Assembly (NCBI GenBank): GCA_029209985.1 | Contig: JARGNZ010000010.1 | Span: 1-64,000 of the forward strand | DNA length: 64,000 bases | Reading direction: 5' to 3' | Origin: Parvibaculaceae bacterium | GTDB taxonomy: Bacteria > Pseudomonadota > Alphaproteobacteria > Parvibaculales > Parvibaculaceae | Part shown: in pieces, positions 1 to 10,865 of the stretch | Position numbering within the stretch: position 1 is the stretch's first letter | Layout: each line of letters starts with the position of its first letter | Program-made: the position numbers and the translations under genes | The notes under the pieces: model-generated | Databases searched by the model: none | Told to the model about the DNA's origin: nothing | The model's input: the letters and a program-made list of their open reading frames with translations, nothing else

Positions 1-506
1 CACCTACAAACTCTTCTCTTGAAGAAGTTTTTGAAGTTGCAGCAAACTATGCTGGTGAAATCGGTTCTGTAGAACTTGGCGTAGACGTGTTCTACGTGAC
101 AGGCGACGCAGGTGCTACTCCAGCTCTTGATCCAGAAGAAATGGGTGTTGGTGCATCACTTGGTTTCGCTGGCTTCACGCTTGGCGGTGCTTATAAAACA
201 TCTGATGAGCTGTCTGGTGGTTACTTGACATCGACTGGTGTTGAAGAAACAGTTTGGACTGTTGGTCTGGCTTATGGCACTGGTCCTTGGACTGTTGGTG
301 TAGCTTATATCGAATCTGAGCTTGAAAATGGTACTGCTGAAGCAACAACTGATATGTTGCAAGTTGGCGGTGGCTATTCACTCGGTGCTGGCGTTGATCT
401 TGGTTTGGACATTCAGTTCATCAACAACGAAAGCTCAACAGCTGGTGTGACTACTTTCGAAGACGAAGCCACATCTGCTGGTGTTGTCTTGGCAATTTCC
501 TTCTAA
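1..506 (+). CDS. Porin, C-terminal part (cut by window edge)
   Basis: The reading frame is open from the window edge (codons in phase from base 3) to the stop, giving 167 residues of an outer-membrane porin. The sequence alternates in the manner of beta strands, is rich in Gly, Ala, Val and acidic loop residues, and ends in LAISF. A C-terminal Phe is the usual BAM recognition feature. It is closely related to the porin that follows; the first 64 bases match 1428-1491 with one difference. Codons are strongly biased to GGT, GCT, CTT and GAA, suggesting high expression. Its substrate cannot be inferred. Confidence 0.88.
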   Translation, partial: PTNSSLEEVFEVAANYAGEIGSVELGVDVFYVTGDAGATPALDPEEMGVGASLGFAGFTLGGAYKTSDELSGGYLTSTGVEETVWTVGLAYGTGPWTVGVAYIESELENGTAEATTDMLQVGGGYSLGAGVDLGLDIQFINNESSTAGVTTFEDEATSAGVVLAISF

Positions 507-549
507 TTTGAAGGGCTGCTAGCCAAATTGGTTATCAGCATTGTTTAAG

Positions 550-579
550 AAGAGCGGGCTTTCGGGCCCGCTCTTTTTT
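550..579 (+). terminator. Rho-independent terminator of first porin
   Basis: A 10-bp stem (AAGAGCGGGC/GCCCGCTCTT) with a short loop is followed by a T run. It lies 44 bases after the porin stop. A near copy follows the second porin. Confidence 0.9.
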
Positions 580-689
580 GTGCTCTATTACTTTTGCATT
601 TTTCCCTCAGATTTAACTGACCCAAGGGATTAGTATCTAAGAGTAAGTCACGGTAAAATGTATCTTTTCTGACACTCTTTAGGGTGATC

Positions 690-725
690 TGTCGCTGGTT
701 GATAAAATTGAATAGTTTAGCGACA
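690..725. promoter_or_regulatory. Inverted repeat upstream of second porin
   Basis: The arms TGTCGCT and AGCGACA are separated by 22 AT-rich bases and lie about 65 bases before the porin start. This could be an operator, but nothing ties it to a named regulator. The arms are short enough to occur by chance. Confidence 0.25.
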
Positions 726-790
726 ATCGTACATGCTAGAAACCTCACAATGATTGATGTCTTTGTTCATTTTCACTGGGGGTTCCTTCC

Positions 791-1951
791 ATGATCAATT
801 CAAAAAAACTACTTGCTTCAACCGCACTTGTATCTGCGTCTCTTGTGGGTGCGCCTGCATTTGCGTCTGATCCACTCACCGTTACCGTTTCTGGTGGTAT
901 CGTGACTGGCTTCTACTTCGTAGATTCTGATGACCTTGGTTCTACAGATGATACAAAAGTTGCTATCTCTGCACGGTCACTTGAAGTGAACGGCGAAGGT
1001 ACCTTGGACAATGGTCTTGTTGCTGGTGCTTCTTTGATCATCGAATTGGGTGATGACGAAGGCGCTTCTACAAGCCAAGGTGATGAAGCTACTTTCCAAG
1101 AAGCATTTGCTTATCTTGAAGGTGGTTTTGGTCGCGTTGAAATCGGTGGCACAGACGGTGCTGCGTTCAAAATGCACTACACTTCACCGTGGTTCGTGCC
1201 AGGTAACGGTGTAGACTCACCAAACATCTTTAATTCCAATGGGGTTAACACAGCTGGTGCGCTTACTACCCCAACATTTGGTTCGTCTCCTTCTACGTAT
1301 GCATTGGCAACAGAAGATGCGCCGAAAATCTCTTACTTCACACCGCGCTTGAGCGGCTTCCAGTTGGGTGTTTCTTACACTCCAGATGCTGGTGTGCACG
1401 ATCCCTATGCAAACGGTTGGGGCGTATCACCTACAAACTCTTCTCTTGAAGAAGTTTTTGAAGTTGCAGCAAACTATGCTGGGGAAATCGGCTCAGTTGA
1501 ACTTGGCGTAGACGTGTTCTACGTGACAGGTGAAGCTGGCACGGCTGATCCAGAAGAAATTGGTGCTGGTGCATCTCTTGGCTTCGCTGGTTTCACACTT
1601 GGTGGTGCTTACAAAGAATCTCAGGATCTTTCAGGTGGTTACCTTATCCCATTCATTCCATTTGTTGGTGGTACTGATGTTGAAGAAACTGTGTGGACCG
1701 TTGGCCTTGCTTATGGCACCGGACCATGGACAGTTGGTGTAGCTTACATTGAGTCAGAAATTGAATCTGGCGCAGTAAGTGGCAATAGCCTGACAACTGA
1801 CTTCTTGCAAGTTGGTGGTGGATATTCACTTGGCGCTGGTGTTGACCTTGGCCTAGATATTCAGTTCATCAACAACGAAATTGCTACCGCTGGTGGTTCT
1901 CTCGAAGTTGAAGACACATCTGCTGGTGTTGTCTTGGCTATTTCCTTCTAA
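791..1951 (+). CDS. Porin, alphaproteobacterial 16-strand type
   Basis: This 386-residue precursor has a signal peptide at residues 1-25 (KK, hydrophobic core, APAFA cleavage region). The mature protein consists of amphipathic beta-strand segments and ends in LAISF, the expected outer-membrane assembly signal. The length suits general porins of the Gram-negative porin family. The conserved stretch FGRVEIGGTDGAAFKM (about residues 112-127) is shared with the third paralogue. Codon choice is strongly biased, as in highly expressed genes. It is the middle of three tandem paralogues and has its own terminator. Solute selectivity is unknown. Confidence 0.93.
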   Translation: MINSKKLLASTALVSASLVGAPAFASDPLTVTVSGGIVTGFYFVDSDDLGSTDDTKVAISARSLEVNGEGTLDNGLVAGASLIIELGDDEGASTSQGDEATFQEAFAYLEGGFGRVEIGGTDGAAFKMHYTSPWFVPGNGVDSPNIFNSNGVNTAGALTTPTFGSSPSTYALATEDAPKISYFTPRLSGFQLGVSYTPDAGVHDPYANGWGVSPTNSSLEEVFEVAANYAGEIGSVELGVDVFYVTGEAGTADPEEIGAGASLGFAGFTLGGAYKESQDLSGGYLIPFIPFVGGTDVEETVWTVGLAYGTGPWTVGVAYIESEIESGAVSGNSLTTDFLQVGGGYSLGAGVDLGLDIQFINNEIATAGGSLEVEDTSAGVVLAISF

Positions 1952-1998
1952 TCGAAGGACCGGCAACCATCTGGTTGTTCACTACCAAATTATTTAAG

Positions 1999-2029
1999 AA
2001 GAGCGGGCTTTCGGGTCCGCTCTTTTTTT
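1999..2029 (+). terminator. Rho-independent terminator of second porin
   Basis: An AAGAGCGG stem with a loop and seven Ts lies 47 bases after the stop. It is almost identical to the hairpin after the first porin, so the terminator was duplicated with the gene. Confidence 0.9.
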
Positions 2030-2212
2030 GTGGATTTGCTGTATGAGCGTGCGCACATTTGAGCCGCGAAGGTGGCTAAGGGAGATGATGTTGTTTTGAG
2101 GCCACATTTTTAGTTGAAAGATCAATCTCCCTAAATCAAATGCAAAGACCCTGCAATTTGTGATACTAATCACCTTAATGTATTACGTTAATTTGATTCA
2201 TTTGGGGGAACC

Positions 2213-3349
2213 ATGTCTCATTCCAAAAAGCTACTTGCATCAACGGCACTTGTGTCTGCGTCCCTTGTGGGCGCACCTGCATTCGCGTCTGACCCACTCA
2301 CCGTCACTGTTTCCGGCAGTATCGTGACAGGCTTCTATTTTGTGGATGCTGATGAACTGTATGACACGGACGATACAAAAGTCACCCTGACGGTTCCATC
2401 ATTAGAGATTAATGGTGAAGGTACTTTGGACAATGGCTTGGTGGCTGGTGCCTCACTTATTCTTGAATTAGGGGATGACGAAGGGGTTTCTGCTGGGCAG
2501 GGCGATGAGGCGACGTTCCAAGAAGCTTTTGCCTATCTTGAAGGTGGTTTTGGACGGGTTGAAATTGGCGGTACAGACGGTGCGGCTTTCAAAATGCACT
2601 ATACTTCCCCCTGGTTTGTGCCGGGCAATGGTGTGGATTCCCCGAATATCTTGAATGCGAGTGCTCTGACGCCGGCGTCTACGCTCATTGTTGCAAACTC
2701 GCCTTCTTCTTACGCTTTGATCACGGAAGATGCGCCGAAGATTTCATATTTCACCCCCCGGCTGAGTGGTTTTCAATTGGGTGCGTCTTACACGCCTGAT
2801 GCCACGGTACGTGATCCATTTAGCAATGGATTTGGTGTGAGCCCAACCGCTGGAACTGGCATTGAAGAAGTATTTGAAGTTGCCGTGAATTATGCGGGCG
2901 AAATTGGCGCTGTTGAGCTGGGTGTTGATGTATTCTATGTCACCGGTGAAGGTCCCGCCTCTGCGCCAGACCCTAAAGAAATGGGTGTTGGTGCGTCTCT
3001 CGGCTTTGCTGGTTTCACCCTTGGCGGTGCTTACAAAGAAACCGAAGACCTTTGGACCGGACTGGCTTCTACGCCCACTGCTGAAGAAGAAGTTTGGACG
3101 GTTGGCCTTTCCTATGCGACCGGCCCATGGACGGTGGGTGTTGCCATGATCGACAGTGAGTGGACCAGTTCTAGTTCTGCTAACACACCTTGGCGCACGG
3201 AAATGATCCAAGTGGGTGGCGGCTATGCACTGGGGGCAGGGGTCGACATTGGTTTGGATATTCAATTTATCGAAAATGATTATGGCACATCTGTTGCTGA
3301 TACGGTCGAAGCAACATCGGCTGGTTTGGTTTTGGCCATTTCATTCTAA
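2213..3349 (+). CDS. Porin, third tandem paralogue
   Basis: This 378-residue porin precursor has the same signal peptide and N-terminal strands as its upstream neighbour and ends in LAISF. It differs mainly in the predicted surface loops (around residues 145-165, 200-215 and 280-330), where paralogous porins usually diverge. Its codon use is more mixed (many GCG, GGG, CCG and GAG codons) than the two upstream copies, suggesting lower expression or an older duplication. It is followed by its own hairpin and then by the sulfotransferases. Confidence 0.92.
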   Translation: MSHSKKLLASTALVSASLVGAPAFASDPLTVTVSGSIVTGFYFVDADELYDTDDTKVTLTVPSLEINGEGTLDNGLVAGASLILELGDDEGVSAGQGDEATFQEAFAYLEGGFGRVEIGGTDGAAFKMHYTSPWFVPGNGVDSPNILNASALTPASTLIVANSPSSYALITEDAPKISYFTPRLSGFQLGASYTPDATVRDPFSNGFGVSPTAGTGIEEVFEVAVNYAGEIGAVELGVDVFYVTGEGPASAPDPKEMGVGASLGFAGFTLGGAYKETEDLWTGLASTPTAEEEVWTVGLSYATGPWTVGVAMIDSEWTSSSSANTPWRTEMIQVGGGYALGAGVDIGLDIQFIENDYGTSVADTVEATSAGLVLAISF

Positions 3350-3372
3350 AATTCAATAGATATCGGGGATGG

Positions 3373-3406
3373 AAGAGGCGGCATTGTGATGCTGCCTCTT
3401 TTTTTA
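3373..3406 (+). terminator. Rho-independent terminator of third porin
   Basis: A 12-bp stem with one mismatch (AAGAGGCGGCAT/ATGCTGCCTCTT) and a TGTG loop is followed by a T run. It separates the porin from the sulfotransferase genes and argues against any sulfotransferase start upstream of it. Confidence 0.85.
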
Positions 3407-3460
3407 TTCGCAGATATGGCTATGCTGCGGACAGGTATATTTACGCGGAGACTTCAGCAT

Positions 3461-4297
3461 ATGGGCGGTATTATTTGGCTCGCATCCTATCCAAAATCTG
3501 GAAATACGTGGACACGGTCTTTCCTGCACAACTTGCTGCGCAATACCAAAGAGTCCGTTGATTTGGATGAGTTGGATCATTTCTGTTTAGGTGAGTCTGA
3601 CATACGCTGGTACGCGCGTCATTTATCTGAGGACCCTCAATCTTCCTCACCGGAAATGCTTGCGAAGGCCCGCGCCAAAGGGCAGCAGGACATGACCCAA
3701 GCCTTCCCGGATTCTGTGTTTGTTAAAACCCACAATTATTTGGGCGATTGGCAAGGCTACCCTTTACATAATATGGGGGCGACGGTGGGGGGCATTTATG
3801 TATTGCGCAACCCGTTGGATGTGGTCCTATCGGTTACGCACCACTTTGGGGTCGATATTGACGGCGCGATTGAACGCATGGCACACCCCAATGCGGGCAG
3901 CGGCCTAAGTGATAAACATATTCCAGAGGTGCATAGCAGTTGGTCCACCAATGTTGAAAGCTGGACTGGACAGCCCAACCCATCTCTCTTTGTGGTGCGA
4001 TACGAAGACTTGCTGGATAAACCAAATGTCTATTTCAAAAACATGGCAAACTTCCTTGGCCTTAATCCTCCCAAGGAACGCTTAAAGCGTGCGATCGAAA
4101 ATGCGTCTTTCAAAAAGCTGAAAGCTTTGGAAGAAGAAAAGGGCTTTAAGGAAAAATCAAAACACGCCAAATCGTTTTTCCGGGAAGGGAAAAAAGAGCA
4201 GTGGCGGGAGTTGCTTTCTGAAAGTCAAATCAAGCGGATTGTTCATGATCATCGCAAGCAGATGGAACGATTCAACTATATCCCTGAGGGGTATTGA
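3461..4297 (+). CDS. Sulfotransferase 1 (catalytically intact copy)
   Basis: This is a 278-residue cytosolic sulfotransferase of the Sulfotransfer_1 fold. The ATG at 3461 is chosen because the two downstream paralogues begin with the same residues, a GGAG lies about 11 bases before it, and the more upstream start would overlap the porin terminator. The PAPS 5'-phosphate loop is YPKSGNTW (residues 10-17, Lys12). The candidate catalytic base is His91 in KTHNY, and the 3'-phosphate motif is RNPLDVVLS (Arg116, Ser124). A late FFREGKK segment fits the family's second PAPS contact. It ends in FNYIPEGY. The next gene starts two bases after its stop. The acceptor is unknown. Confidence 0.88.
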   Translation: MGGIIWLASYPKSGNTWTRSFLHNLLRNTKESVDLDELDHFCLGESDIRWYARHLSEDPQSSSPEMLAKARAKGQQDMTQAFPDSVFVKTHNYLGDWQGYPLHNMGATVGGIYVLRNPLDVVLSVTHHFGVDIDGAIERMAHPNAGSGLSDKHIPEVHSSWSTNVESWTGQPNPSLFVVRYEDLLDKPNVYFKNMANFLGLNPPKERLKRAIENASFKKLKALEEEKGFKEKSKHAKSFFREGKKEQWRELLSESQIKRIVHDHRKQMERFNYIPEGY

Positions 4298-4299
4298 GT

Positions 4300-5097
4300 G
4301 TGGGGGGTATTATTTGGCTCTCTGAGTACCCCGGTTCGGGTATTGCATCCGTGCGAGCCTTTCTCCATCAGCTTTTGTCGGGACGGCCTGAAACAGCTTA
4401 TATGACGCTTGCGGATCAAATGTTTTTTGATGCCTCTGATCCGGCTTGGTACAAACCTTATCTGCCCCAAGCTTTAGAGAAAACACCTGTGCCTTATCTG
4501 GCGAAGCTTCGATTGAAGGTTCAAGAAGATATGGAACGCCGTCAGAAAAATCCTGTCTTCATCACAACGCGCTCATGTGTGGGTGCTATTCATGGCAGTG
4601 ACTATCACCATGGAGCCTTGTCGGCGGGGGCTATTTGCATTGTTCGAAACCCTTTGGATTTGGTCGCGAGTACGAGTGTGGCCCATTCATTGCCACCAGA
4701 AACAGTGTGGCGAAATTTGGCTAATACAGATGCGCAGCGTCCGGTAGGTCCCGATCAGTTGCCTGAATATTATGGGTCATGGAGTACGCATGTGGCGTCA
4801 TGGACGGATCGGAAAGACAAATTCTTATTGACCCTAAAATATGAGGATTTGGTTTCGCGTCCCCAAGCGGAGTATCGGCGGCTTATCAAATTCTTGAAAG
4901 TAAAGCCGGAGCGGCAACGCTTTCTTAAAGCGGTGGCACAGGGGAAACCTTCTTTAACGCAGGACACGCCCGCGTCCTCTGCTCAAGACCTGCCACTTTG
5001 GCGCGAGGTGTTGACGGATGAGCAAGTCTCTCTGGTGGTCGATAGTCACCGTGCTCAGATGAAAAGATTTAACTATATACCAAAAGGATTTGAGTGA
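4300..5097 (+). CDS. Sulfotransferase-fold paralogue 2, likely inactive
   Basis: This 265-residue paralogue is co-linear with the preceding gene through residue 124. The GTG at 4300 gives the same MGGIIWL beginning; a TTG at 4294 is a longer alternative. The PAPS loop reads YPGSGIAS, so Lys12 is Gly, and His91 is Arg (TTRSC). The 3'-phosphate motif RNPLDLVAS with Arg116 and Ser124 remains. The late FFREGKK region is missing. The FNYIPKG ending is kept. The family match and order are seen directly; loss of catalysis with possible retained nucleotide binding is inferred. It is translationally coupled to both neighbours. Confidence 0.8.
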   Translation: MGGIIWLSEYPGSGIASVRAFLHQLLSGRPETAYMTLADQMFFDASDPAWYKPYLPQALEKTPVPYLAKLRLKVQEDMERRQKNPVFITTRSCVGAIHGSDYHHGALSAGAICIVRNPLDLVASTSVAHSLPPETVWRNLANTDAQRPVGPDQLPEYYGSWSTHVASWTDRKDKFLLTLKYEDLVSRPQAEYRRLIKFLKVKPERQRFLKAVAQGKPSLTQDTPASSAQDLPLWREVLTDEQVSLVVDSHRAQMKRFNYIPKGFE

Positions 5098-5933
5098 TGA
5101 GTGGCATCGTATGGTTGGCTTCCTACCCGGAGTCTGGAAACAAACTGACGCAATCATTGCTCCACAACCTTATTTCTGGGCGGCCGGAAGGGCGCTATAT
5201 CAACAAGTTTCAAAAGTCTTTCCACTTTGAGGCCAACTCTGAATGGTATGAGGATAAGGTAGTGGGGACGCCGCAAACGGTGACACCAGAACTGTTGGCG
5301 CAGGCGCGGCCCAAAGTGCAGGAGGCGTTGGCTAACTTAAACCCCGGTTCCTCGTTTGTGAGCACCCATAATTGTTTAGGCGCTTTATACGGGCAGCCCT
5401 TGATCAATGCTGCTGTGACTGCTGCTGCAATCTATACTGTCCGCAATCCATTGGATGTGGCGGTCTCTATGTTGCCGTATTTTAATCAAGACCCTGACTT
5501 GGTGATTAAGCAACTGAATAATGCGCAAGCGATGACCAATGTGACAGACCATCATGTGCCGGAAGTTTTGTCTTCATGGTCGGCGCATGTGGCGAGCTGG
5601 GTCAATAAACCAAATAAAATTCTGCATGTTGTGCGGTATGAAGACTTTTTGACGGATTTGGCTGGGACGTTTCAGGGCATTGTGGATTTTCTCAAACTGT
5701 CTCCTGAGGAAGACCGGATGGCCCGGGCCTTGAAAAATGGCAGCATCGAGGCCTCGCTACAGCATGAGCAAACCGGTGGTTTTTCGGAGCTCCGACGGTT
5801 TGATGGAGCCTTTTTTCAACACGCGTCCCAAGGCCGTTGGCGCGAGCTTTTGAGTGATGACCAAGTTCAACAAATCATTTCTCCACATCGGGCGATGATG
5901 GAAAAGTTTAATTATATTCCTGACGGCTATTAA
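5097..5933 (+). CDS. Sulfotransferase-fold paralogue 3, altered PAPS loop
   Basis: This 278-residue paralogue has an ATG that overlaps the preceding stop by one base (TGATG). The loop reads YPESGNKL, so the PAPS-contacting Lys12 is Glu, while His91 (STHNC), Arg116 and Ser124 are kept. The late FFREGK segment has become FFQHASQG. It ends in FNYIPDGY. Replacing the loop lysine with an acid next to a phosphate ligand would be expected to weaken PAPS use, so this is either a binding protein, a partner subunit of copy 1, or an enzyme with another donor. Its stop overlaps the stop of the converging gene. Confidence 0.8.
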   Translation: MSGIVWLASYPESGNKLTQSLLHNLISGRPEGRYINKFQKSFHFEANSEWYEDKVVGTPQTVTPELLAQARPKVQEALANLNPGSSFVSTHNCLGALYGQPLINAAVTAAAIYTVRNPLDVAVSMLPYFNQDPDLVIKQLNNAQAMTNVTDHHVPEVLSSWSAHVASWVNKPNKILHVVRYEDFLTDLAGTFQGIVDFLKLSPEEDRMARALKNGSIEASLQHEQTGGFSELRRFDGAFFQHASQGRWRELLSDDQVQQIISPHRAMMEKFNYIPDGY

Positions 5934-7873: not shown

Positions 7874-8869
7874 TTATTGCACGGATCGAGATGTAGCTTG
7901 GCGTAAAGCTTGGTTTTTGCTTTGATCATACTTATCGAGGCCTGATTGCATTTTACTCAAGAGATCATTGATTGGTGTGGAAGCTTGGGCGTCGGCATAT
8001 TTACTCTGGGCTATGGTGCTGGTTTGAATGATTTCAGCAGCACCGCGTGTTTTTGTGCCTGTGCTATTGGCGACATCTTTTGTGGCAACTTGTTGGGCAA
8101 TAGACTGTGTTGTCTTGGAGGTTTCTTCAAAAGAAGCCAGCAGAGCATTGAAGGCGGTGGGACTGAGATTGGGGCGATTACTCCACGCGGCTTTTGGGTC
8201 TTTAATCCGCTCTTGCATATCAGGCAGTTCTGGTTGAGCAGTGTTGGTCTTAGACGCCGTGGTGGAGGGGGCTTGGTGCGCCGTGTAGGAGGCTAATTGA
8301 ATGCCGCCTGTATTCTCCGGCATCTGTGTCTTGGCACTTTTATTATGCTCGTCTTGGGCCTTCTTCGTTGGAAGGTTGGCAAGTTGTGTGTCTACTTGAT
8401 TTGGTGCAGGCGTTTTATCTGTGTCCCCGGCGTCCTCATCACTGAAAAATGCGAGGACGTGCTGTCCAACGTCTAGGCCGCTGATTTCTTCGACGATGGC
8501 ATCCACTACGGAACTGGCCAGTCCGGTTACACCGCCAAAAATGCCTCCGCCGACAATCTTTGCAGGGGCGCTCATTGTATCTCCGGTGATGTCTTGATAG
8601 AGCGTGGAGACGACAGGGATATGCTGCAATGGATTGACCATATCGAGCAGGTCTTCAAACCCGAAGTCATCCGGCTGAGATTTTGCGGTAGCGTCTGTGC
8701 TGGTTGTTTGTGGTGTGGATTTTATTTGGGCTTGTGCTTGGATTTGTTGAGTCCGTTCCGCATAATTTTCTGCGCGAATGGCATTGAGCGCCTTTGAGGC
8801 GGCATTGCGGTTGTTCACCCTTAAAAAGAGGGGCTGAGATTGTTCGGAAGATACTTGTGTGTACGTCAT
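7874..8869 (-). CDS. Unrecognised Gln/Thr/Ala-rich protein
   Basis: This 331-residue product was not recognised. The ATG at 8869 (MTYTQVSS) is chosen because a longer frame would run into the divergent sulfotransferase start and has an atypical composition. It is low in complexity (Gln, Thr, Ser, Ala, Lys) with one ordered-looking centre (about residues 70-135). That centre has a Gly-rich hydrophobic stretch, KIVGGGIFGGVTGLASSVVD, and an acidic segment after it. No signal peptide or enzyme motif is seen. The organisation would suit a secreted, surface or scaffold protein, but no function is claimed. Confidence 0.65.
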   Translation of the reverse strand: MTYTQVSSEQSQPLFLRVNNRNAASKALNAIRAENYAERTQQIQAQAQIKSTPQTTSTDATAKSQPDDFGFEDLLDMVNPLQHIPVVSTLYQDITGDTMSAPAKIVGGGIFGGVTGLASSVVDAIVEEISGLDVGQHVLAFFSDEDAGDTDKTPAPNQVDTQLANLPTKKAQDEHNKSAKTQMPENTGGIQLASYTAHQAPSTTASKTNTAQPELPDMQERIKDPKAAWSNRPNLSPTAFNALLASFEETSKTTQSIAQQVATKDVANSTGTKTRGAAEIIQTSTIAQSKYADAQASTPINDLLSKMQSGLDKYDQSKNQALRQATSRSVQ

Positions 8870-9137
8870 GATCTCTAGCGCCTTGCTATGCCGGTGTTGG
8901 TTTCGTTTTCTACAACGCAAAAGCAATGCCACTTTGTGACGCCATTTTTGGCAGAAATAGGGGGGCTGTCGAGGCTGATAAATGAAGTAGGCAAAAAGTG
9001 CCGGGGCAGAAGGGGGCAAAGGGGTAATCTTTTCCAATCCCGTGGGTGAGGGCTTTTGTTTCTTTGGCAATGTGTTGAGTGATATGGCAGACTGGCCCTC
9101 CATTTTCCGCCGTATTGGGCCTATTAGATTAAGATTT

Positions 9138-10865
9138 ATGACTGACAAGACCTCCGACCTTGACCCCAAAGTTATGCTGCAAGCCGCGCAAAAAGCTTTT
9201 GGCCAAAATGATTTAGCAACGGCCATACGCTTCATGGCCATGTTCCAAAATGCTGAGCCAGATAACCCAGATGGAATATACCTGAATGGGCTTATTGCTG
9301 AACGACAGGGGCGGTTGATCGCGGCGCATGATTACATGGAGCAGGCGCTGGAAATTGATCCGCTTCAGCCTCGTTTCCAACTTTCCTTTGCTAATGTTTT
9401 GCGCCTTCAAGGCGCGCGCGAGGAAGCCTTGGAGCTGGTGAACAAGGTGGTCGCAGCGCATCCTAAATATGCGGCGGCTTATAGTCAGCGGGGGGCGCTT
9501 TTTGTTGAGCTTGGCGATGAGGTGCGCGCTGAAGCTGATTTTCAGCAAGCTATGGTTTTAGCCCCTGAAGACATGATGGCTTATCGTTATATTCGTCTGC
9601 TTAAAGTGCAGCAGGGAAAATACGATCATGTGGTTAAAGTTTGTGAATTTGCCCTCAAGCAGTTTCCGGACGCTCTCGTGTTTGTTCAGGGTCTTGCAGA
9701 TGCTTATGAGCGATTGTCTCTTCTGGATGATGCGTTGGAGTGGACGGAAAAAGCTTTAGAGTTGGCGCCAAAGAGCATTTATCTCATCGTGCTTTGGGCG
9801 CGTATTAAGCGGCGGATGGGCGACTATAAAAGCGGTCAGGATCGTTTAACACGCCTTTCGCTTAAAAATGCTCGCCCTCAGGAAGCCCGTTTGGTTCATG
9901 CTGAACTAGGGCAGACTTTTGATCGGTTAGATGATGCAGATGGCGCGTTTAATCATTTTTCTGCGCAAAATGCGATCACTGAAAAAATTGCACAAAAACG
10001 CTCTATTGATAAAGCTCACTATCTTGCTCAGGTTCGAGATTTGAGTGCTGCGTGTACGGAAGACCTTATTGCCAAGTGGCGCACCTTACCTGCGCCGACA
10101 GCCTTGCCTTTACGGCCAGTTTTTTTGGTGGGCTTCCCGCGATCCGGCACGACATTATTGGATCAGGTGTTGGACAGCCACCCAAATGTGCAAGTTATTG
10201 AAGAACGACCTGTGTTGTTGCCGGTGCGCGATGCGATTGCCCAAATGGAGGGCGGCTATCCTGCTGGGTTGGCTTCGATAGATGAGGCGCAACGGAACGA
10301 GTTGCGCGCGCTGTATTGGCAAGGGTTGGTTGAGGCCGGAGCTGAAGAGGGAAAGCTTGTCGTCAACAAATTGCCTTTGAATTTAATTCATGGGGCCTTG
10401 ATCCACCGAATTTTTCCAGATGCGCAATTCATTTTTGCTTTGCGTCATCCTTGTGATGTTGTGCTTTCTTGTTTCATGCAAGACTTTGAACTGAACGCGT
10501 CCATGGCAAACTTTTTGACATTGCCGGATGCGGCGGGGCTTTATGAAGAAGTGATGTCTCTCTGGCAAAAGTACCGTGGCGCATTTGCATTGAACGTGAC
10601 GGAAATTCGGTATGAAGCCTTGGTGTCTGATTTGGAAGGAGCTGTGCGCCCGGTGTTGGATGCGCTTGGTTTATCTTGGGATGCGAAGATGCTCGATCAT
10701 GTTTCCCACGCCAAATCTCGAGGTTCTCTGCGGACCCCGTCTTATGCTCAAGTCACCCAGCCACTTTATGGGCGGGCAACAGATCGATGGATGAGATATG
10801 AGACTTATATCAACCGTGTAAAACCCCGTTTACAGCCCTATATTGACTTATACGGGTACAAATGA
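9138..10865 (+). CDS. TPR-sulfotransferase fusion
   Basis: This 575-residue protein has several TPR units (about residues 8-270; DPLQPRFQLSFA, HPKYAAAYSQRG and APEDMMAYRYIRL are repeat boundaries) followed by a sulfotransferase domain. The PAPS loop is GFPRSGTTLLD near residue 333; Arg in place of Lys is normal in the Sulfotransfer_3 group. The 3'-phosphate motif is ALRHPCDVVLS (about residue 437). The ATG at 9138 starts the first TPR; more upstream codons give no family-like sequence. It probably sulfates a protein or polysaccharide bound through the TPRs; the acceptor is unknown. It is separate from the sulfotransferase triplet. Confidence 0.87.
   Translation: MTDKTSDLDPKVMLQAAQKAFGQNDLATAIRFMAMFQNAEPDNPDGIYLNGLIAERQGRLIAAHDYMEQALEIDPLQPRFQLSFANVLRLQGAREEALELVNKVVAAHPKYAAAYSQRGALFVELGDEVRAEADFQQAMVLAPEDMMAYRYIRLLKVQQGKYDHVVKVCEFALKQFPDALVFVQGLADAYERLSLLDDALEWTEKALELAPKSIYLIVLWARIKRRMGDYKSGQDRLTRLSLKNARPQEARLVHAELGQTFDRLDDADGAFNHFSAQNAITEKIAQKRSIDKAHYLAQVRDLSAACTEDLIAKWRTLPAPTALPLRPVFLVGFPRSGTTLLDQVLDSHPNVQVIEERPVLLPVRDAIAQMEGGYPAGLASIDEAQRNELRALYWQGLVEAGAEEGKLVVNKLPLNLIHGALIHRIFPDAQFIFALRHPCDVVLSCFMQDFELNASMANFLTLPDAAGLYEEVMSLWQKYRGAFALNVTEIRYEALVSDLEGAVRPVLDALGLSWDAKMLDHVSHAKSRGSLRTPSYAQVTQPLYGRATDRWMRYETYINRVKPRLQPYIDLYGYK

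Follow-up and report, generated by a model that had tools for sequence, protein, structure and literature searches.

A sulfotransferase gene with two tandem paralogues that look incapable of using PAPS in a Parvibaculaceae bacterium

In several eukaryotic enzyme families, dead paralogues control a live partner. In trypanosomes, deoxyhypusine synthase (PMC3663545) and the AdoMetDC prozyme system (PMC5201418) each comprise a catalytically dead paralogue that activates the active partner, and both complexes have been proven biochemically. SULT4A1, a human orphan member of the cytosolic sulfotransferases (SULTs), showed no activity in classical assays and retains the catalytic Lys-Lys-His (PMC8803991). 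In bacteria, the gene for the tyrosine sulfotransferase RaxST adjoins that of its substrate, RaxX (PMC6637879). No example of a bacterial sulfotransferase with a dead paralogue controlling the live partner was found in the literature searched. Here we describe three tandem genes, ST1, ST2 and ST3, in a window of 64,000 nucleotides from a Parvibaculaceae bacterium. Judged by their residues they comprise one intact copy and two degraded copies, a combination with hardly any parallel among about 200 genes of the same kind.

All three genes lie on the plus strand within positions 3461-5933. ST1 extends from an ATG at 3461 to a TGA ending at 4297 (278 aa), ST2 from a GTG at 4300 (or a TTG at 4294) to a TGA ending at 5097 (265 aa), and ST3 from an ATG at 5097 to a TAA ending at 5933 (278 aa). 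Only two bases separate ST1 from ST2, and the stop codon of ST2 overlaps the start codon of ST3 by one base (TGATG). Shine-Dalgarno-like runs on the same strand, read from the sequence, precede each start codon at normal spacing: GGAG (3447-3450) for ST1, GAGGGG (4286-4291, within the 3' end of ST1) for ST2, and AAGGA (5084-5088, within the 3' end of ST2) for ST3. A single transcript probably serves all three genes.

Upstream, at least three very similar porin genes stand in tandem (87-3349): porin A (87-506), which is cut by the contig start, porin B (791-1951, a Porin_4 match) and porin C (2213-3349, plus strand; Porin_4, PF13609, E 8e-43), whose position as upstream neighbour of the sulfotransferase gene or genes is conserved by synteny. 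Since the contig starts inside the first porin, further copies may lie beyond its end. A hairpin resembling an intrinsic terminator (3371-3402, plus strand; 14 pairs followed by a T run) lies between porin C and ST1, which suggests that the ST transcript is largely separate from that of the porins. A single operon of porins and sulfotransferase genes was rejected because of this strong terminator. Downstream of ST3 follow genes for a TMP-TENI protein (minus strand), a YggS-like protein, a YkuD protein (minus strand), a TPR/Sulfotransfer_3 protein and a response regulator. The TPR protein (9042-10865) bears a C-terminal Sulfotransfer_3 domain, which adds another type of sulfotransferase to this gene block; it is conserved in the family, most loci showing about 37-46% identity.

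To judge the three copies, we aligned 189 distinct full-length relatives, drawn both from whole genomes and from named records. Positions conserved at 97% or more were classed as near-invariant, which gave 38 sites, and two aberrant members were excluded from the baseline, leaving 187 intact sequences. Residue equivalences come from alignment to mouse SULT1D1 and TEG12 and from the established SULT structure. On this basis we assign K12, T16 and W17 to the 5'-phosphosulfate loop and to one side of the adenine sandwich (through stacking by W17), F217 to the opposite adenine-stacking side, K89 and H91 to the catalytic pair (K89 as the catalytic Lys of the KTH motif), and R241 and G243 to the late 3'-phosphate motif.

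ST1 gives a full-domain profile match to Sulfotransfer_1 (PF00685, E 7.4e-27, residues 5-271) and retains 38/38 near-invariant sites. It holds the YPKSGxTW 5'-phosphosulfate loop, the catalytic Lys and His, the R...S 3'-phosphate site and the RxG motif, and its closest relatives in the PDB are TEG12/StaL and the cytosolic SULTs. Orthologues occur in 34 of the 39 other genomes of its family, with 54-67% identity for the best match per genome. An APS kinase is encoded in the same genome, so that PAPS should be available to ST1. By its sequence, ST1 is an intact PAPS-dependent sulfotransferase. The other copies are more distant, with 42% (ST3) and 33% (ST2) identity to ST1; ST3 still matches PF00685 with E 2.7e-19, and ST2 does so only over residues 111-214 (E 8e-10).

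A sequence-only reading of this DNA had aligned the three copies without gaps over residues 1-124, and we find that the gapless alignment extends past residue 210. The residues reported there for ST1, ST2 and ST3 were reproduced, namely K/G/E at position 12, H/R/H at position 91, and R116 and S124 in all copies. Likewise, FFREGKK occurs in ST1 only; ST2 lacks 14 residues in this region, and ST3 reads FFQHASQG. That the 3'-phosphate site is kept in all copies holds true for R116 and S124 but not for the late R241 and G243, which are gone from both ST2 and ST3, so that neither combines R116/S124 with R241xG243. Additional losses in ST2/ST3 affect T16 (A/K), W17 (S/L), K89 (T/S) and F217 (deleted/I). 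Thus, the loop residues K12/T16/W17 have become G/A/S in ST2 and E/K/L in ST3, and the KTH motif reads TTR in ST2 and STH in ST3, where the His stays and the Lys is gone; neither copy has an intact loop or a complete K89/H91 pair. Altogether ST2 lacks 18/38 near-invariant sites. These include the seven also lost by ST3 (K12, T16, W17, K89, F217, R241 and G243) plus N15 and H91, the point changes being K12G, N15I, T16A, W17S, K89T and H91R, and most of the lid is deleted. ST3 lacks 8/38 sites, seven of which are PAPS or catalytic sites, and its changes are K12E, T16K, W17L, R19Q, K89S, F217I, R241Q and G243A. From these residues, both copies look incapable of PAPS binding or use, and we consider it very likely that catalysis has been lost in both.

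It is hardly conceivable that errors of sequencing or assembly account for the unusual residues: the assembly is a draft whose contig starts inside a porin repeat, but the frames are long and open, their codon-position pattern is coding-like, and the sites were altered by substitutions and not by frame errors. One could also imagine that ST2 and ST3 are enzymes with a changed chemistry or donor, in which a remodelled pocket takes another ligand and H91 of ST3 may act as a base. ST3 indeed keeps H91, R116, S124 and Y181 and has an ordered predicted fold, and neofunctionalised SULT-fold proteins do exist, such as retinol dehydratase (1fmj), which is among the matches, although it was crystallised with PAP. 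Yet ST2 and ST3 have lost the adenine-sandwich residues on either side as well as the phosphate loop and the late phosphate motif, most of the lid is missing from ST2, and a new conserved motif cannot be revealed by single sequences. A changed chemistry is therefore improbable.

At the sites lost in ST2 and ST3 the 187 intact relatives are essentially invariant, so the losses are more than chance. A further 19 phylum-level relatives keep T16, W17, K89 and H91, as well as K12 (one with K12R). The sequence-only reading had given relatives with Lys12/His91 in all copies, together with neutral dN/dS in these, as a ground for refuting its interpretation. The first half of this holds in the family of the source genome, tandem second copies included: K12, T16, W17, K89 and H91 are kept in 48/48 full-length copies from 34 genomes. 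Tandem copies in the family are thus almost always catalytic by their residues, and ST2 and ST3 are the exception against about 200 sequences. When named genomes were scanned with the family alignment, 80 loci were recovered, with K12/K89/H91 intact in all except one relative (L203), which carries K89N alone; a scan of the same kind with ST2 alone gave no match. Only one other full-length relative is comparably degraded, a copy in genome G233 (L132:10361-11194) with K12R, T16I, K89S and H91R. It belongs to another alphaproteobacterial family, and both an intact copy and genes for PAPS synthesis lie close by. As an orthologue of ST2 or ST3 it was rejected, because it groups elsewhere in the tree and is absent from the related locus L211; it is independent of them. 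In about a dozen loci, including L132:4001-7640, L201, L205, L211, L143 and L152, cysD and a fused cysN-cysC directly follow the sulfotransferase gene on the same strand, which ties the family to PAPS use.

The ordered triplet, for which a search of other alphaproteobacterial genomes had been proposed, was absent from the family and class genomes searched; second copies in other genomes of the family keep Lys12/His91. The search for counterparts of ST2 or ST3 covered 40 family genomes, which also make up the order-level sample, along with 385 genomes of the class and 398 of the phylum; none was found, and both copies are known from one genome only. In G010, the only other assembly of the same genus (70% complete), the contig starts at the equivalent of window position 7925, so the triplet and the neighbouring gene fall in a gap. 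As far as can be seen, the triplet is a lineage-specific oddity and not a conserved module. The surrounding order (porin, sulfotransferase, TMP-TENI, YggS, YkuD, TPR-sulfotransferase, response regulator) is family-wide and is partly found in other Alphaproteobacteria. Tandem sulfotransferase copies are common, ranging from pairs up to 8-11 pieces, and their catalytic residues are kept. The arrays at L120 (genome G373) and L215 contain 8 copies and up to 11 pieces, mostly full-length and catalytic-looking.

In 71/107 non-redundant loci (window 791-4297, L034-L067 and L120-L238), a Porin_4 gene on the same strand precedes the sulfotransferase gene or genes by no more than 1.5 kb. Where at least 4 kb of flank was available, 56/57 loci that contain YggS had a porin nearby, vs 8/31 that do not; the adjacency partly reflects shared ancestry of the gene block. 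The copy numbers of porins and sulfotransferases showed no correlation (Spearman 0.02). As to the acceptor of ST1, the nearby porins offer no more than a lead, and a terminator separates porin C from ST1.

The earlier argument that the shared ending FNYIPxG and the kept R116/S124 indicate selection is not supported, as these are generic family features and the ending is the family-wide RFxYIP. Other traces of constraint are found elsewhere in the sequences. ST3 keeps 23/24 near-invariant non-PAPS sites vs 7/14 PAPS/catalytic sites (Fisher p 0.0017). Losses in ST2 amount to 9/14 PAPS/catalytic vs 9/24 other near-invariant sites (p 0.18), and this share of non-PAPS losses fits relaxed constraint. 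Most other conserved positions are kept in both copies, far better in ST3. The more conserved the positions, the more often the family consensus is matched; for ST3 the figures go from 14/89 to 16/19 and 30/38. Third codon positions are saturated (0.65-0.67 differing), and ST1 and ST3 differ by 0.47/0.37/0.65 at codon positions 1/2/3, as expected of coding sequence. When ST1 was mutated neutrally to the observed identity, the frame stayed open in 0/300 runs and about 9-10 stops arose; the reading frames and start signals of ST2 and ST3 are intact. AlphaFold2 gave mean pLDDT values of 89.3 (ST3) and 88.2 (ST2), with lid residues 220-229 of ST2 below 50, and Foldseek matched both models to SULT structures, although AlphaFold2, when given a family alignment, is prone to yield the fold of that family regardless of point substitutions. 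Both proteins are thus predicted to retain the SULT fold save for the PAPS lid, the low-confidence part of the models that would close over PAPS. The residue pattern shows past constraint outside the PAPS site, and much the same trace would be left by a recently inactivated enzyme. Loss of catalytic residues combined with constraint on the remaining fold is clear for ST3 and weaker for ST2.

ST2 and ST3 might instead be non-functional leftovers of array expansion, long active, recently inactivated and now drifting in frame before decay. Such an origin would agree with their presence in one genome, without counterparts in the 34 genomes of the family in which the gene occurs, with their fast end branches, with the loss of structural sites and most of the lid from ST2, and with the frequency of tandem duplication and fragments in the family (e.g. 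the truncated second copy in G016). It fits less well with frames and start signals that have stayed intact despite heavy divergence, with the clustering of the ST3 losses in the PAPS site, and with the survival of two separate copies. On balance we regard decay as possible but doubtful. The branches of ST2 (1.8) and ST3 (1.2) are 3-5 times longer than that of ST1 (0.36), a difference equally compatible with relaxed constraint and with a new function.

The same long branches complicate the reconstruction of the history. Rare residues are common to ST2 and ST3 at 12 positions, to ST1 and ST3 at 2, and to ST1 and ST2 at 0, and the ST2+ST3 clade has a support of 95/94. This clade may have been helped by long-branch attraction, and a tree joining ST1 with ST3 was not rejected (AU p 0.15), ST2 and ST3 both being long rows. 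Monophyly of ST1-3, which bears on whether ST2 and ST3 arose inside the genus, was not demonstrated, though the AU test did not reject it (p 0.42). These data make it probable that ST2 and ST3 are sisters, with good but not conclusive support. In the likeliest history, an ST1-type gene was duplicated once in the lineage of the source genome and the diverged copy was then duplicated again. The first duplicate would have lost its PAPS site before giving rise to ST2 and ST3, or the two would have lost it separately; at the seven shared sites the replacement residues differ between ST2 and ST3, so these two courses are indistinguishable.

Taken together, we favour, with moderate confidence, a model in which ST1 is the active enzyme and ST2 and ST3 are folded, translated, non-catalytic pseudo-sulfotransferases that act by binding; that these two proteins have a present function is held with the same moderate confidence. 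ST1 would be the working enzyme, supplied with PAPS through the APS kinase of the genome, and ST2 and ST3 would bind to it and alter its stability, activity or specificity. Alternatively, they could hold the acceptor substrate. A direct partnership with ST1, which is suggested by analogy, is a tentative proposal. Still more speculative, and in our view unlikely, is a sulfotransferase complex of ST1 with ST2 and ST3 as dedicated non-catalytic subunits, acting on an envelope component that is connected with the adjoining porins; if this were true, it would be a bacterial sulfotransferase run by dead paralogues. Should ST2 and ST3 prove functional, the locus would offer an easy three-gene system for the regulation of a sulfotransferase, or its supply with acceptor, by inactive copies.

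How does the triplet relate to the known systems? The best sequence and fold matches are the glycopeptide sulfotransferases TEG12, Teg14 and StaL (PDB 3mgb, 3nib and 4eec) and the cytosolic SULTs (PF00685). ST1 shares with them the fold and the motif order YPKSGNTW, KTH, RNPLD...S, YED and FFREGK, whereas in ST2 and ST3 the donor-site residues by which the activity is defined are missing. SULT4A1 (PDB 1zd1) has the SULT fold and appears among the fold matches of ST2; however, ST2 and ST3 have lost K12 and K89 and so do not have Lys-Lys-His. SULT4A1 is also strongly conserved in vertebrates, in contrast to two proteins known from a single genome. RaxST-RaxX resembles the locus in that a small cluster unites a bacterial sulfotransferase gene with that of a possible exported partner, but here the neighbours are Porin_4 porins, at most putative substrates, and the stretch examined yielded neither RaxX nor genes for type I secretion. 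The trypanosome deoxyhypusine synthase and the AdoMetDC prozyme, which pair an active enzyme with an inactive paralogue of the same family, serve as the model for the partner hypothesis; the present case differs from them in having two dead copies in one bacterial array.
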